Shown: piece after piece, positions 9,501 to 29,197 of the stretch
How the letters are laid out: each line of letters begins with the position of its first letter
Position numbering within the stretch: position 1 is the stretch's first letter
DNA from: a bacterium
GTDB lineage: Bacteria; Patescibacteriota; Patescibacteriia; UBA9934
DNA: 37,552 nucleotides
Reading direction: 5' to 3'
Assembly (NCBI GenBank): GCA_027592325.1
Contig: JAQCKO010000012.1
Span: forward strand, 1 to 37,552
The notes under the pieces: model-generated
Told to the model about the DNA's origin: nothing
The model's input: the letters and a program-made list of their open reading frames with translations, nothing else
Database searches by the model: none
Made by a program: the position numbers and the translations under genes

Positions 9501-11420
9501 TTATCTGAATTGTTCAAGTAGCTGTTGTTGCGCACTAGGTGAGTAATAGTAATTTAGGTACAACCCGGTTTCATCTGATTGATACTTTCCATTCGAAGAA
9601 ACATACAAGCCTTTTTCAAGACGAGGTAGTGTATTCACTTGTTCTTCGTTTGGTTGGCGGCCGGGTATAGAGTCGAATAATCCAGTGAGTGTTTTCCAGC
9701 CCTTAGGGGCGGCCTCATTGAGGATTTTCTCAATCACTATATCAACAATTTCTTTCTTATAGAATTGAATCATTCCGGTAGGTCCGGTGCTTCTATACGT
9801 TGCTCCCATTTCGTCTTCCTTCCATCCGTGTTTCTCTTGCAAAAAACTGATTACGTGTGGCAGACTGCGGTGCGGTTCTATAATCTTTTGCCTACCCTTC
9901 GTCTCTAACAGTTCATGAATTTTATCCGTAATCCCTTGTCGCGAGAGTGCATCTTTTGGCGGGATCCCTTGTTCTAAGATTACTTTTACCTCTTGATATA
10001 GCGGTTCGTCGTAATTTTTTGTGAGCTTCAGTGGATTGTTTTCCAGCTCTTCTGGTTGTACTGTGCCCGTAGCAAAAAATTTCCGAACCTCAAAACCTCC
10101 CTCTGACACAAGGTCGTACACAGCGCCGCGCACAGTAATGTAGTCGACGCTAATTCCCTCGGCCGCAAGTCGTTTGCGCATTTTACCTATAGTCATCCAA
10201 GCACTATCTCTTGGTTTAAAGTATGTGACTACGGTCTCAATCAGCCGTTCGCTGAAGTCTTTATTAAATCTTGGCGCCTGCGTTGTGCCGTCTTTATGCT
10301 TGCCAAAATAAGTAATTGTATCACCTTTTTCCCCTCCTTCATACTCGCTAAGACCTACTGCACGATCAAAAAGCGCAGATTCAAGAACATTAATTCCATA
10401 TATCCATTTTAAGTGATTCAGTACTCCTCGAATAGATGTTAAGTCAAGCTTTGCTATTTTTTCTCGATTTTTGCTAGGCATTTCGATCGCTGACTTCACA
10501 AGAGTTTGCCATTCAAGTTCACTTCCTGGATAGCAAATGCGTAATGTAGTGGCGTCAGAACATCCACGCAATTGACGCTTTGTCATGCGGGCAAACAAAG
10601 CTAATGATCGTATCGCATCCATGACTTCGTCTGGGTGAACGATATAGGTCGCATTGCGTACATCGTCGCAAATAAATGCATGCACATAAGGTTGCCCTGG
10701 TCTCCCGTTTGAATCTTTTGCAGCATCGTTCTTAATAGTCGTTCCATGGTAGGGCTCATTTCTGAACCATCGCGGATCAACAGTTCCGGGTTGAGCGGCC
10801 ACTGCGTGAAAGTAAGGTGTGCTCTCAATGAGTGCATGCAGTAGATGGTTAAGCGCGTGTACTTCTGCTTCTTGAAATTCATTTGGCATTTCGCTTCCTG
10901 CATCGAGAAACCTTCCTTCGTCTGGTGGAATATTTAGGAAGGCGACTTCTGTTTCACCCTCAACTGAAGCATCAGGCGTTTCGTGATCGATAGTTGGCGG
11001 TTTCTTCAAAAACGGTCCATCGAGCCTTTCATCATCCTTTGTGACATCACGAATAACGGTGTATTTTCTATTGAATTCAGGCAGTTGAACATCACTTTGT
11101 ACGTATGCGGCGAATAGCTGTAGCAACTCCATTTCCGTAGCGATTCGGGACAGTTCATTCACATCACTCGGTGCTTCGTTTTCAAGTAAATGGGCTTTGC
11201 GTGCGTGCAATTCCTTTTGAATGATACCAATCGCCTCCACAGCAGAAGGGTCTTTTAATCGAATACGTTCCTGAATGTCTCCACCAGTATGACGTGCAAG
11301 CCGATCCGTCAACTTTGCATTCGTCTCCAAATCAGAAAAAGCGGATTGAATAATCTCCATCTCTCTTTCAATATTTCTACTATTATCACGACTTTCCATA
11401 CTGTCATTTAATACTGACAA
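9501..11420 (-). CDS. Uncharacterised 639-aa protein (soluble, possible winged-helix-like segments)
   Basis: Long ORF; TTG start at 11420 or ATG at 11399; no family recognised from sequence. Confidence 0.85.
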   Translation of the reverse strand: MSVLNDSMESRDNSRNIEREMEIIQSAFSDLETNAKLTDRLARHTGGDIQERIRLKDPSAVEAIGIIQKELHARKAHLLENEAPSDVNELSRIATEMELLQLFAAYVQSDVQLPEFNRKYTVIRDVTKDDERLDGPFLKKPPTIDHETPDASVEGETEVAFLNIPPDEGRFLDAGSEMPNEFQEAEVHALNHLLHALIESTPYFHAVAAQPGTVDPRWFRNEPYHGTTIKNDAAKDSNGRPGQPYVHAFICDDVRNATYIVHPDEVMDAIRSLALFARMTKRQLRGCSDATTLRICYPGSELEWQTLVKSAIEMPSKNREKIAKLDLTSIRGVLNHLKWIYGINVLESALFDRAVGLSEYEGGEKGDTITYFGKHKDGTTQAPRFNKDFSERLIETVVTYFKPRDSAWMTIGKMRKRLAAEGISVDYITVRGAVYDLVSEGGFEVRKFFATGTVQPEELENNPLKLTKNYDEPLYQEVKVILEQGIPPKDALSRQGITDKIHELLETKGRQKIIEPHRSLPHVISFLQEKHGWKEDEMGATYRSTGPTGMIQFYKKEIVDIVIEKILNEAAPKGWKTLTGLFDSIPGRQPNEEQVNTLPRLEKGLYVSSNGKYQSDETGLYLNYYYSPSAQQQLLEQFR

Positions 11421-11427
11421 AATACTA

Positions 11428-11485
11428 TCATCTTTGCCTCATTTACTCACGTGAGAGAGGTGAATAGCAAATGAGGCAAAGATGA
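11428..11485. repeat. 17-bp perfect inverted repeat upstream of the 639-aa gene
   Basis: TCATCTTTGCCTCATTT(11428-11444) / AAATGAGGCAAAGATGA(11469-11485). Confidence 0.9.
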
Positions 11486-11487
11486 GC

Positions 11488-11712
11488 GCCCGACCGTCTT
11501 CGTAGTGTCGAAGGGGTCGGGCAGGGCTCACAGGTCGCGACCTGTGAGCCGAGTGCCTCGCGGCCGAGTGGGATCGAAATCCCACTCGGCCCCATGAGCA
11601 GCCATCCGTAGTCGGACGGCTGCTAGGCGGCGCCACGCCCGTGCCCGGACATGCCGGGCGTGAAGCGTTGCCGAAACCTCTCGGTGCGCGCGCACTCGCG
11701 CGCACCGAGAGG
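11488..11712. repeat. Tandem array of GC-rich hairpins/palindromes
   Basis: 11488-11522 GCCCGACC..GGTCGGGC; 11525-11550 GGCTCACAGGTCGCGACCTGTGAGCC (26-bp palindrome); 11562-11591 GGCCGAGTGGGAT-cgaa-ATCCCACTCGGCC; 11597-11624 AGCAGCCaTCCG-tagt-CGGAcGGCTGCT; 11634-11662 CACGCCCG..CGGGCGTG; 11677-11712 CCTCTCGGTGCGCGCG-cact-CGCGCGCACCGAGAGG. Confidence 0.92.
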
Positions 11713-11837
11713 CGGTGAACCGCTCGACATTTGATGATTTTTGCAGATTGCCTCCACAAATTTCTGTCCGCTACCTAAGGTATTCTAGGTGCGCTACAAA
11801 TTTTTGAGCTCACTATTTTCATACTGTGCTCAAGAAT

Positions 11838-11891
11838 TTGCCCGACCATCGTGAGTACGAAGGTCGGGCAAGAGTGCGGCGAGTGAGCCGC
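11838..11891. repeat. Additional hairpins related to the array
   Basis: TTGCCCGACC(11838-11847)/GGTCGGGCAA(11862-11871), same stem sequence as hairpin 11488-11522; GCGGC gagtga GCCGC follows. Confidence 0.8.
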
Positions 11892-11973
11892 GGAGTTTGC
11901 AGACTATTCAGACCGGCCTGCAAGCGGGCATCGAATGCTCGATTGTTTTACTCCCCCGAGCTGGGGAGTAAGA

Positions 11974-12429
11974 CTAGGCGGCGATCTTGCGCTGCTTCAT
12001 CTTCACGACGCCGTGGAGGGCGCTGAGCCCCCCAGCGGCGGCGACCAGTACACCACCGAGAAAGGTTGAGCCTTTCCCGCTCCCGCTGCCGGTTTGGAAC
12101 CGGATCTTCCCCTCGGGCGAGATCCGGATGAACCGCCCCTGCTGGCCGCTCCAGGGCCGCCAGACGACGTTGCCGTCGTCGTCGAGGGTGACGTTGGGGC
12201 GCCAGAACGCCCCCTCGTCATCTGTGCCGGCCGCCGCGATGGCGGCCTCCAGCGACCCGGGGTCGTCTGGGAGCGACAGCGGGCCGCAGCCCTTTTTCTC
12301 CTGGCGCCAGGGGTGATCCCCCGTCGCCAGGGCTAAGGCGAGCGCGCGAGCGCGCTCCACCGGCACCATGACGGCGCCGGCGCGGACTGTCGTGACGGCG
12401 ATGATGACGGTGGTGGTCTCGTTGGACAT
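11974..12429 (-). CDS. Hypothetical GC-rich ORFan with C-terminal hydrophobic segment
   Basis: MSNETTTVIIAVTTVRAGAVMVPVERARALALALATG...FLGGVLVAAAGGLSALHGVVKMKQRKIAA; SD GGAGG at 12434-12438. Confidence 0.7.
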   Translation of the reverse strand: MSNETTTVIIAVTTVRAGAVMVPVERARALALALATGDHPWRQEKKGCGPLSLPDDPGSLEAAIAAAGTDDEGAFWRPNVTLDDDGNVVWRPWSGQQGRFIRISPEGKIRFQTGSGSGKGSTFLGGVLVAAAGGLSALHGVVKMKQRKIAA

Positions 12430-12445
12430 GATGCCTCCAGGCATC
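12430..12445 (-). promoter_or_regulatory. SD-sequestering hairpin immediately upstream of the ORFan start
   Basis: Minus strand GATGCC-TGGA-GGCATC-ATG with GGAGG partly in loop and partly in stem. Confidence 0.6.
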
Positions 12446-13398
12446 AACCCTGTTATTCCCAGATGTCACCCTGGGCAGGGCCCCCTCCGCAAAGGGGTGA
12501 TGGTATTTTGTCAGCCTCGAATGAGCTTTCGTCCCTTGGCACATGCCTTGGGAACTGACAATCTGTTGCGCTTCTCGGCGCATATCAGGTCAATTCGGAT
12601 CGATCCTTCGACTTTGTCCTGCTAGGCGGGACTACGCTCCCGGCGGAGCCGGGCAGGCAGGATGACGAAATGGGCTGATATGCACCTCGGAGGGCTTAAG
12701 GTTATAGCCTCGCTGTGGGCGCGAAATTCACGCGCACAGGGAGACTGACGGATGGTCGTGAGATCTCTCTTAGGTCCAAAGGACCATCTCCCGGGCCAGA
12801 GCGACCTACTGATATGGGCCTCTTACTTCTCTAAGCCGAAGCTGAGAAGGGAGGTTGTCCATATGCCGGTGCGGTCTAGCATCCGTCAATCAATGACTAT
12901 TCAATTGTGAATGTTCATCCTTTTCCCGCCTTTTCACAGGCTTCACACAGTGGTTACAGATCTCTCGCTGAACCTCTATTCTGTGGTAAGGACTGTATCC
13001 CTCGCGACTCAACGCCGTAGCGGAATCGCTTAGGATGCACTCATTACCACGGCATTTCTCAGGTGCCGGGGGATATCGCCATGTTTCCCTCGACCGCAGT
13101 CGATTGATGTATGCTAGGCGTATCCGACGTATTCCCTAGAAGGGGAATAAGGTGAGAATTTCAGATAAATGGTAGAAACCTCTCTCATGAAGTTTGGATT
13201 GCTCCCTTGCTACCACTTGGCTGAAAACGATCGCTTTTATGACAAAAGCGGATACATCGCTATCAATGGAGAGCAATATATCCGCTTCTACAATATCTAT
13301 CACTAGATATTATCTGCCTCGTTTCCCTGAGGCGGGCTCTCTCACCAGGTGTATTGTAATGTTCTGCGTTTCGTCTGTTTTCTTCCTCATCGTTCGCT
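12446..13398 (-). ncRNA. Candidate large structured RNA / long structured 5' leader (~950 nt), class unassigned
   Basis: Promoter TTGACA-17-TATAGT at 13433-13405 (minus); >12 helices including long-range 12746-12754/12880-12888 (TGACGGATG/CATCCGTCA), 12580-12588/12675-12683 (GCATATCAG/CTGATATGC), 12508-12514/12555-12561, 13247-13254/13279-13286, 13170-13175/13210-13215; C(UUCG)G loop and GAUGG/CCUAAG receptor-like motif on the minus strand; no good CDS. Confidence 0.7.
12602..12672. repeat. Interspersed repeat inside the structured RNA region
   Basis: gatccttcgactttgtcctgctaggcgggactacgctcccggcggagccgggcaggcaggatgacgaaatgg; related fragments near 13830-13880 and 15000-15030. Confidence 0.6.
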
Positions 13399-13404
13399 GG
13401 CACC

Positions 13405-13433
13405 ACTATAACATATTTCACCACTTCTGTCAA
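13405..13433 (-). promoter_or_regulatory. Strong sigma70-like promoter driving the large RNA
   Basis: Minus strand TTGACA - gaagtggtgaaatatgt (17) - TATAGT. Confidence 0.75.
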
Positions 13434-13536
13434 GCGCGTCATCTATATTATGGCTAATACTAGCGTAAAATACGCAGTATTTTTGGTGAGATGCTTGTGA
13501 GAATAATTGACGAAACTGTCTCTTTCCGCCATAATC

Positions 13537-13755
13537 ATGGCGTTTATGAAGATATTTACGTGGAAGCAGCGTGCCATTGTGTTTTTGGTGACTATCGCGA
13601 CCATCGCGCTATTCGCGCTTATTGGGTATCTTATTGGGCGAGCAGCAGGATCAGGCACCATTGGGCTCGTGATCGCTGTTCTTCTTTCATACCCGGCAAC
13701 GCAATTTCAGCTCGCTAAAACCATGCGCCGCCTGTACGATACGAATAAACACTAG
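13537..13755 (+). CDS. Small two-TM membrane protein upstream of atpB (AtpI/AtpZ position)
   Basis: MAFMKIFTWKQRAIVFLVTIATIALFALIGYLIGRAAGSGTIGLVIAVLLSYPATQFQLAKTMRRLYDTNKH; location only suggests an ATP-synthase accessory role. Confidence 0.65.
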   Translation: MAFMKIFTWKQRAIVFLVTIATIALFALIGYLIGRAAGSGTIGLVIAVLLSYPATQFQLAKTMRRLYDTNKH

Positions 13756-13847
13756 GGGTACGAATGCGCATTACGTTGAACCATTCGCTTTGCTCATTCG
13801 TTGAAAGCGTTGGGAGCGTTGGTGCGAAGAGATCCTTCACATTCGTT

Positions 13848-13912
13848 CCCGGCGGAGCCACGGCAGAGCCGGGCAGGCCGGACCAGGCTCCGCCTTGGCT
13901 GCCGCTAGTTCG
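13848..13912. repeat. Inverted copy of intergenic repeat (left of atpB)
   Basis: CCCGGCGGAGCCACGGCAGAGCCGGGCAGGCCGGACCAGGCTCCGCCTTGGCTGCC; reverse complement present at 14980-15026. Confidence 0.75.
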
Positions 13913-14049
13913 CAGGAATGATAAAACGATCAAATTCAAACAGTAGATAGGCACGGTGACTTTTCCCTACAACTAACAACTCACCACCTACAACCTCAGA
14001 TCTCTCACCTCCAACATCCAACCTGAAACCTGTAACCTGAACCCTCCAT

Positions 14050-14847
14050 ATGAATGACATCATGCTCCCAGCTCGCGAGCTCTTCTCGCTCGGGCTCATC
14101 CCAATCACAGACGGATTTCTTGGATCGATCATCGTCACCATTTCGATGATTACCTTCTTTTATCTAGCGGCAGGTCGATTCTCTATCGTGCCAACACGCA
14201 TGCAAGCCTTCCTTGAAATGATGTACGAGTATGTGCTCGGGGTGCTTGAAAATGCCTTTCGTTCAAAAGAGCGTGCCGAGAAATTCCTCCCGTTTTTCCT
14301 CACCATGCTCATTTTTCTCACCGTTGCGAATCAATTCACGTTGGTGCCGTTTATTTTTGAACTCACGTATCAAGGCGGTGATCTATTCCGTCAGCCAACC
14401 AGTCACTTCGCGCTGCCGATTGCGCTTTCACTTCTTGTCTTTGTGATTTCGCATATCATGGCCTTCCGAATCTCTCCAATCAAACATTTATCGAATTTCG
14501 TGAATGCGGGACCGCTGCTTAAGGCGAGAAAGCCGATGGATTTTTTTACGGGCGCGATTGAGGCCTTCATTGGCGTATTGAATGTGATTGGAGAGGTGGC
14601 GAAAGTTGTGTCGCTTGCGGCGCGTCTATTTGGAAATATCTTTGCCGGGAATGTGATGGTTGCGGTGATAATTGGGCTCGCCTCATTCACGCAATTCATC
14701 GTGCCGATTCCGTTCATCATTATCAGCGTGTTCTCAGGATTCGTTCAGGCCTTCGTATTCATGCTTTTGTCGATTCAGTATATCGCGATGGCCATTGATG
14801 GAGCGACGCCGGAAAAACACGTCAGTTCACCTAATCTAGTAGCTTAA
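14050..14847 (+). CDS. atpB: F0F1 ATP synthase subunit a
   Basis: SLAARLFGNIFAGNVMV (essential Arg motif) and PIPFIIISVFSGFVQAFVFMLLSIQYIAMA. Confidence 0.95.
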   Translation: MNDIMLPARELFSLGLIPITDGFLGSIIVTISMITFFYLAAGRFSIVPTRMQAFLEMMYEYVLGVLENAFRSKERAEKFLPFFLTMLIFLTVANQFTLVPFIFELTYQGGDLFRQPTSHFALPIALSLLVFVISHIMAFRISPIKHLSNFVNAGPLLKARKPMDFFTGAIEAFIGVLNVIGEVAKVVSLAARLFGNIFAGNVMVAVIIGLASFTQFIVPIPFIIISVFSGFVQAFVFMLLSIQYIAMAIDGATPEKHVSSPNLVA

Positions 14848-21096: not shown

Positions 21097-21125
21097 TTGA
21101 CAAAGGAGCGAAATAGGCGTAAACT
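21097..21125 (+). promoter_or_regulatory. sigma70-like promoter
   Basis: TTGACA-17-TAAACT. Confidence 0.55.
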
Positions 21126-21163
21126 TGCTTGTTCGCTGCATAAAGTGGCGGAGGGAGGATCGT

Positions 21164-21499
21164 ATGGGGAATGGAGTTTGGGGAGTGCGTTTGGGCGTCA
21201 TCGATATTGCCGATGAGACGCCGAAGATGACCACGGCTGTGTTCGCACAGATGCTCCGGGAGGGGCTCAGCTATGCCGGTCTCGACCCGACCATGCTAAG
21301 CACGCTCCGCGACTGGGCACGCCGGCAGGTCGCCGAGCTCTACGGCGCCGGGGCCGACGTGCAGTACCGAACGGACCGTGACATCAAGGAAGGGCTTGTG
21401 CTCGTCTGGTTCACGGTCTGTCTCAACGAGCGGACCATACTCGAGCTCTGCTCGAATGGTGAAGTGCGTGACCTTCGGGAGGGGGCGTGCGCTGCCTAA
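21164..21499 (+). CDS. Hypothetical GC-rich ORFan
   Basis: GGAGGGAGGatcgtATGGGG; 111 aa ending ...DLREGACAA. Confidence 0.65.
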   Translation: MGNGVWGVRLGVIDIADETPKMTTAVFAQMLREGLSYAGLDPTMLSTLRDWARRQVAELYGAGADVQYRTDRDIKEGLVLVWFTVCLNERTILELCSNGEVRDLREGACAA

Positions 21500-25549: not shown

Positions 25550-25578
25550 TTGACTTTATACTAACTTTGCGCTACTAT
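25550..25578 (+). promoter_or_regulatory. sigma70-like promoter
   Basis: TTGACT-17-TACTAT. Confidence 0.55.
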
Positions 25579-25620
25579 GCGTCGTTCGCCAATTACGGCG
25601 GGCACCACACTGGAGTTCAC

Positions 25621-26274
25621 ATGCTCTTCTTGATCCTGTCACTCGTTTCCTACGCGCAGGACACGACGGTCATCGGCCCGCCGCCCACGGCGGAAGAGGT
25701 GCGCGTGGAGATGGAGCTCGCCAAGAGGATGGCCACCGACGGCCGCACGTACGAGGACTTGGGCCGTGAGGACAAGGCCTTGGTCGATCGTGTGATGAAG
25801 ATGCTGGGTCGCTGCGTGATGGTGACCGCGCGTGCCGAGGCGATCGAGCGCAACCGTGCGGCGGTCAGCATGGCCGATGGCCTGCTCTCGGCGACGGATC
25901 CGGGTCTGACGCAGAAGGAGCAGCAAAACGTGCTCCTCGAGATCATCGTGTCGGCGCACGACAACCTGATCAGCATCATCGATGGCACCGAGCGCTACCG
26001 GTTGTCCTCGGTCGACATCGATGACACCAGTAGGATCGACCGCATCAGAGCGCATGCGGAGGAGATGCGCGTGGCCCTCGCGGCCTACATCGAGGATCCG
26101 AACGCTTCCAATGCGAAGTATCTTCACGCTGCCGCAGAAGCCGACAAGCAGATCAGTGCTCTGATCCTGCGGATCGAGTCGGCTCGGTTCGACGAGTACC
26201 TCGCCACGCCCTCCGGCTTCACGCCGGAGATCGACGCCAACTACTGCGCGGAGATGACGGCAACAACTGATTGA
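25621..26274 (+). CDS. Hypothetical secreted, helical, GC-rich ORFan
   Basis: MLFLILSLVSYAQDTTVIG signal peptide-like start after TGGAG RBS. Confidence 0.7.
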   Translation: MLFLILSLVSYAQDTTVIGPPPTAEEVRVEMELAKRMATDGRTYEDLGREDKALVDRVMKMLGRCVMVTARAEAIERNRAAVSMADGLLSATDPGLTQKEQQNVLLEIIVSAHDNLISIIDGTERYRLSSVDIDDTSRIDRIRAHAEEMRVALAAYIEDPNASNAKYLHAAAEADKQISALILRIESARFDEYLATPSGFTPEIDANYCAEMTATTD

Positions 26275-28052: not shown

Positions 28053-28406
28053 TCAGTTGATGCCGAAGATGCGCAGCAAGAGCGCGAGGCATCCCGGGCT
28101 CTGGTTCAGCTCAGCGGCACTCGTCACTTCCGGCGCATGTTGCCCGAGCTTGAAGATGTACTCGAGCTGGTCTATGGTGCCGTGCACATCTTGTGCCAGC
28201 TTCCCAGCTCGCCGAGCACGCTGCTCGATCGTTTCTGGGACGCGTGGGAGAGACCCGCTTCGGACAATCGTCTCGAGCGCCCTCAGCAGCGCTCGCCCTC
28301 TCGCGAGGTGCACCCTGACGTCGTCGCGCGTAGCATCTTCGGGGCTGAACCTCGCTGCCTGCTGCAGCCAGGCTCCTGCCGCTTCAAAGGGATCATTTTT
28401 GTTCAT
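28053..28406 (-). CDS. Hypothetical GC-rich ORFan
   Basis: GGAGGaagcATGAACAAAAATGATCC; promoter TTGACA-17-TATATT at 28459-28431. Confidence 0.68.
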   Translation of the reverse strand: MNKNDPFEAAGAWLQQAARFSPEDATRDDVRVHLARGRALLRALETIVRSGSLPRVPETIEQRARRAGKLAQDVHGTIDQLEYIFKLGQHAPEVTSAAELNQSPGCLALLLRIFGIN

Positions 28407-29168: not shown

Positions 29169-29197
29169 ATACTAGCACAAAAACCACCTTTTGTCAA
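29169..29197 (-). promoter_or_regulatory. sigma70-like promoter of the 430-nt RNA
   Basis: TTGACA-aaaggtggtttttgtgc-TAGTAT. Confidence 0.72.

Follow-up and report, generated by a model that had tools for sequence, protein, structure and literature searches.

The window, i.e. the whole 37,552-nt stretch of DNA that was analysed, is taken from contig JAQCKO010000012.1 (GCA_027592325.1) of an ultra-small bacterium, and the feature of interest lies on its minus strand. Read along this strand, a strong promoter is followed by a structured leader, a GC-rich cargo gene, a hairpin array and a terminal hairpin. A second locus, in genome G013, has the same order with two cargo genes. The features of both are reported in Table 1.

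Table 1. Features of the window and, in L085 numbering, cargo genes of the homologous locus in G013.
Feature	Position	Strand	Basis or remark
Sigma-70 promoter TTGACA-17-TATAGT, extended TG	13405-13433	-	Homologue: TTGACA-17-TATGGT, same place
Structured leader RNA (main finding), ~969 nt	12430-13398	-	Folding, R2 homologue, covariation
5' box CGAUGAGGAAGAAAACAGACGA	13371-13392	-	Common to both loci; homologue GUGAGGCAAGAGAACAGACGA
GAGAGAG motif 1	13337-13343	-	Present in homologue too
Hairpin H1	13316-13333	-	Folding
Hairpin H2	13290-13313	-	Folding
Hairpin H3, apex CUCUC, UUUU end, attenuator-like	13244-13289	-	Folding, motif comparison
GAGAGAG motif 2	13180-13186	-	Present in homologue too
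Conserved core	12980-13128	-	Covaries with L085:10074-10222
Small hairpin AUUCA-CAAU-UGAAU	12899-12912	-	Homologue CUUC-ACAAUA-GAAG
Lineage-specific domain, long-range stem and putative 'receptor'	12743-12891	-	Missing from homologue
REP-like repeat inside lineage-specific arm	12599-12672	-	Similarity to other loci
Hairpin GAUGCC-UGGA-GGCAUC over ORF ribosome-binding site	12430-12445	-	Folding
Orphan ORF P0001, 151 aa, GC3 0.895	11974-12429	-	Coding-like periodicity
Strong hairpin array	11488-11973	-	11945-11974, 11838-11871, 11677-11712, 11597-11624, 11562-11591, 11525-11550, 11488-11522
Terminal 20-bp hairpin, CUCUCUC loop (11453-11459)	11428-11485	-	Homologue's operon ends likewise
P0002, 639-aa ORF beyond terminal hairpin	9501-11420	-	Orphan
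Tandem Csx3-like gene (two domains), first cargo gene	L085 10394-11032		Pfam 2e-13, PADLOC 5e-18
SAVED protein, second cargo gene	L085 11195-11743		Best PADLOC match SAVED4--SAVED_TM, 5e-18

The minus-strand promoter named in the original prediction was borne out, being one of only three 11/12 sigma-70 sites in the 37.5 kb, another of which precedes tRNA-Glu. All the helices listed there were recovered in place, most with a pair probability of at least 0.9, and the absence of a convincing CDS was confirmed, since coding periodicity is lacking across 12440-13440. With 100 dinucleotide shuffles, the 969-nt fold scored z -8 (minus strand) and z -7 (plus strand); 20 shuffles gave z -11 and z -6, respectively. 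The strand bias derived from folding energy alone is therefore weak. By a 200-nt scan, the longest structured run in about 215 kb of the genome extends from 11401 to 12800. The structure does not, as had been proposed, end at 12430, and continues past the ORF into the hairpin array. The region 11421-11973, which includes perfect palindromes, is denser in hairpins than the leader itself (z -18 minus, -14 plus). Also not sustained was a suggested 11-nt GNRA tetraloop receptor: the sequence is GAUGG, not UAUGG, the segment competes with a GAGAU/AUCUC stem, and the domain containing it is missing from the G013 homologue.

Comparison with Rfam 15, including the models for OLE, ROOL, GOLLD, HEARO, group I/II introns, RNase P and tmRNA, returned no relevant match, either for window positions 11400-14100 at E<=10 or, at E<=1, for the homologue, so that the RNA remains unassigned, as originally described. 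The RNase P RNA of the genome sits on contig C5, and no tmRNA was found in the window. DNA similarity searches of 60 relatives, 380 phylum genomes, 381 class genomes, phages and plasmids yielded nothing beyond the REP-like piece and hairpins matching by chance. REP-like palindromic repeats of the type GTCATCCTGCCTGCCCGGCTCCGCCGGG...GAAGGATC are found at 12599-12672 and 13820-13925 of the window, as well as on other contigs and in other genomes of the class.

A covariance model, R2, was built from the single sequence 12980-13128 and used to search 39 relatives and 380 phylum genomes, partly overlapping sets, with stricter filters for the 380. A full-length match of 48.9 bits (E 5.8e-9 for one genome) was detected at G013:C14:24074-24222, corresponding to L085:10074-10222; G013 belongs to the same family as the window genome but to a different genus. 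The next-best match outside the window genome, in G130, reached only 22 bits and was rejected as lying inside a 698-aa reading frame; the noise ceiling is therefore far below the G013 match. The structured RNA has a homologue in another lineage, and the family rests on two clear members. Other searches did not enlarge it: model R1 (12738-12896) detected only itself in 96 relatives, and its domain was not found at the G013 locus; model R3, built on the 5' domain with a poor consensus structure, found nothing new; the RNA is not present in the four atpB neighbourhoods compared for synteny; and the homologue's leader matches no phage or plasmid. In viral contigs, pattern matches were either absent or chance matches dismissed by R2.

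In the model alignment, 61% of the aligned positions are identical in the window and G013 cores. Within the 149-nt core, 10 of the 46 base pairs differ on both sides, and standard pairs occupy 96.6% of the cells; when partners were slid as a control, 36-46% were paired, with 0-2 double changes, and none of 500 shuffles reached the observed values. The alignment consists of two rows only, fitted to the model's own structure. Lack of covariation across homologues would have refuted the original prediction; the ten double changes, although between two sequences, remove this objection for the core, whose predicted fold they support within the limits of such a pair. Independent support comes from the G013 leader, which, folded alone, is structured (z -7.8) and forms the same core hairpin, GUGGUAA...UUAUCAC, with flanks GAGUGCA and CAGUCC. 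The stretches CGCC-AGCAUAC, GGCGA--UCCCCC, GUGGUAA-GAGUGCA-CC and CAGUCCUUA-CAC are conserved in sequence, and suggest, by inference, a functional pocket.

These data also bear on the possibility that the hairpins are DNA-level inverted repeats, such as protein-binding or replication hairpins, or the product of composition-driven folding, and not a functional RNA. Such an origin would account for a folding score nearly as strong on the opposite strand and for the palindromes of the 3' array, but not for compensatory core changes on the predicted strand, for the conservation of unpaired segments, for an orientation relative to promoter and ORF kept in two genera, or for the strand bias of the homologue's 3' array (z -11 versus -5). 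It is largely refuted for the core and not excluded for 11421-11973; as an explanation of the whole we consider it highly improbable.

The two genomes have in common the covarying core, the promoter and the end motifs, while the cargo differs. Both promoters read TTGACA-17-TATxGT. Both leaders contain, in order, a 5' box ending in AACAGACGA, a GAGAGAG motif, hairpins, a long CUCUC-apex hairpin ending in U's, a second GAGAGAG motif and the core; downstream of it come the small hairpin, a 3' part peculiar to each lineage, the GC-rich ORF, an array of 3' hairpins and a terminal hairpin whose loop carries CUCUCUC. The leaders, about 970 nt in the window and 640 nt in the homologue, extend in each case to the start codon of the GC-rich ORF, whose GC3 is 0.887 in G013, close to the tabulated value for the window. 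H3 closes with UUUU in the window, the homologue having CUUUU instead. Together, the two leaders carry four copies of GAGAGAG, where the frequency of the motif in the genome would predict 0.05; this count was made post hoc. The motif may pair with the C/U-rich loops.

Because the homologue has a like promoter, 5' box, GAGAGAG motifs, 3' hairpin array and CUCUCUC terminal hairpin, the RNA can be read as a long structured leader that heads a cassette spanning 13433-11428. The original prediction had left the choice between a new large RNA class and a very long riboregulatory leader, and is supported by the homologue, the compensatory changes and the absence of Rfam matches. Since the RNA heads a gene cassette in both genomes, the two readings are not exclusive, and a putative new family that sits as a leader is supported.

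A possible mini member lies on the minus strand of the window at 29176-28730. It is made up of a strong TTGACA-17-TAGTAT promoter, GAGAGAG, a hairpin and a terminator hairpin with a CUCUCUU loop (29172-29078), followed by a 17-codon ORF and a second terminator with a CUCUCUC loop. A strong promoter, TTGACAAAAGG-N-GGTTTTTGTGCTA, recurs in almost identical form at 29197 (minus strand) of the window and in several relatives (L064, L066, L068, L069); where read, it precedes short or GC-rich ORFs.

H3 could also divide the transcript into two layers, termination turning the first ~155 nt into a short, abundant RNA and read-through giving the cassette mRNA, with the core involved in read-through control. 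The U-ended H3 of both loci, with its CUCUC apex and upstream GAGAGAG, agrees with this, as does the ~100-nt unit of like layout, with a proper terminator, at 29172-29078; however, the U-run is short in the window, and the 5'-domain profile, poor as its consensus structure is, missed that unit. We regard this arrangement as improbable.

The cargo of the window could not be related to known proteins. The ATG of P0001, at 12429, is preceded by GGAGG and, as judged by eye, the protein may have a membrane segment at its C-terminus. Compared with family libraries, PDB, PADLOC and sequence collections, both P0001 and P0002 are orphans, and their predicted structures are of low confidence (pLDDT 37); P0002 has no relative in any family library, nor in the 96 related genomes searched, and P0001 resembles neither G013 cargo protein. 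Orphan-looking ORFs with GC-rich codons are also found at 1726-2439, 21125-21499, 25567-26274 and 28053-28406 of the window and on other contigs (L073 12371-14434 and 14573-15103; L076 1-455); those measured have a GC3 of 0.7-0.9, the genome as a whole being about 46% GC, and some stand behind strong TTGACA promoters. The interpretation of P0001 as a foreign island is weakened, because such ORFs occur elsewhere in the genome.

In G013, the tandem Csx3-like protein matches solved Csx3 structures (AF_1864, E 2e-10) and the SAVED protein has a hydrophobic segment at its N-terminus. Judged from these similarities, the cargo would belong to cyclic-nucleotide immunity, combining a ring-nuclease-like Csx3 with a SAVED-TM effector. 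No cyclase, Cas10 or CRISPR gene was recognised beside the G013 cassette, where ORFs were read by eye without a family search and the flanking ones look housekeeping; similarly, no cyclic-nucleotide synthase was recognised among the window genes scanned. L085 10394-11743 is, by itself, a stand-alone Csx3-Csx3 and SAVED-TM operon in a Patescibacteria-type genome. Nothing that could be detected ties P0001 to immunity, and the immune association therefore rests on one locus.

A long leader acting in cis appears the likeliest mechanism, to which we give an even chance, because no separate good promoter lies near the ORF, the leader reaches the start codon at both loci, and it contains an attenuator-like hairpin as well as one covering the ribosome-binding site. 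Close upstream of P0001 no other minus-strand sigma-70-like promoter was found, the sole other candidate being a 9/12 site at 13303. Transcription, regulation and an immune role are inferred. The leader would act as a sensor or switch setting the output of a potentially harmful cargo, through the early hairpin ending in UUUU and the hairpin covering the cargo's ribosome-binding site; possibly, GAGAGAG of the leader would pair with CUCUC of its own hairpin or with CUCUCUC of the terminal loop.

The main rival, rather unlikely in itself, is a large noncoding RNA acting in trans, of the ornate type or as a component of an RNP, with the cargo proteins as partners or guarded and read-through incidental. 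A structure of about 1 kb, core internal loops conserved in sequence and a promoter similar in strength to that of the tRNA-Glu gene would suit such an RNA, for which OLE RNA, bound by OapA, offers a precedent (PMC12265935); the conservation of sequence within the core could be equally compatible with it. No 3' end is found before the ORF, however, the sole intrinsic-terminator-like site within the leader being weak and located near 13240, and a cargo wholly different at the two loci is unlike a dedicated protein partner.

The preferred reading, of a new family of large structured RNAs in Patescibacteria-type genomes, produced as the 5' portion of a cassette transcript and acting mainly in cis, is in our judgement evenly poised: against it stand the two members, the model-fitted alignment, the lack of transcript data and the single immune-linked locus. 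We think it unlikely that the loci represent a hitherto unknown RNA-headed cassette system, in which the conserved RNA and the matching terminal hairpin (GAGAGAG/CUCUCUC) would bracket exchangeable GC-rich cargo, including in part cyclic-nucleotide effectors, the RNA being an infection sensor or an effector-releasing switch.

Large structured bacterial RNAs of unknown function are few, and to our knowledge none such has been described from Patescibacteria, a literature search being likewise empty. The present one joins a core fold with intergenus covariation to a concrete link at the locus, where the G013 RNA stands directly before two genes, one for a Csx3 ring nuclease, the other for a membrane effector of the SAVED type. 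If it controls, or senses for, these genes, a large RNA would be tied to cyclic-nucleotide immunity.

Several known systems share part of these properties. Type III CRISPR and CBASS accessory modules draw on the same Csx3 and SAVED-TM families as the G013 cargo, which has no recognised Cas10, cyclase or CRISPR gene adjacent to it, and the window cargo is unrelated. The ornate RNAs GOLLD and ROOL are similar in size class and density of helices, and GOLLD, which tolerates inserted cargo such as tRNAs (PMC12286853), also in cargo tolerance; in contrast, neither of our loci matches Rfam or lies in a phage or tRNA island, and their downstream cargo is protein-coding. OLE RNA, of Bacillota, is also a large structured RNA; among the genes found directly downstream of it the commonest is oapA, which encodes a membrane protein that binds the RNA (PMC12265935). 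The possible membrane segment of P0001 and the SAVED-TM product of the second G013 gene recall this arrangement, whereas the new RNA has no Rfam match, belongs to a different lineage, measures ~970 or 640 nt rather than ~600 nt, reaches the start codon of the ORF and has no conserved cargo. Long leaders and attenuators of the riboswitch type resemble it in leader position, in the terminator-like hairpin and in the hairpin over the ribosome-binding site; the new leader differs from them in lacking a known aptamer, in being far longer, and in the 3' array that accompanies it, where a motif complements part of the leader.
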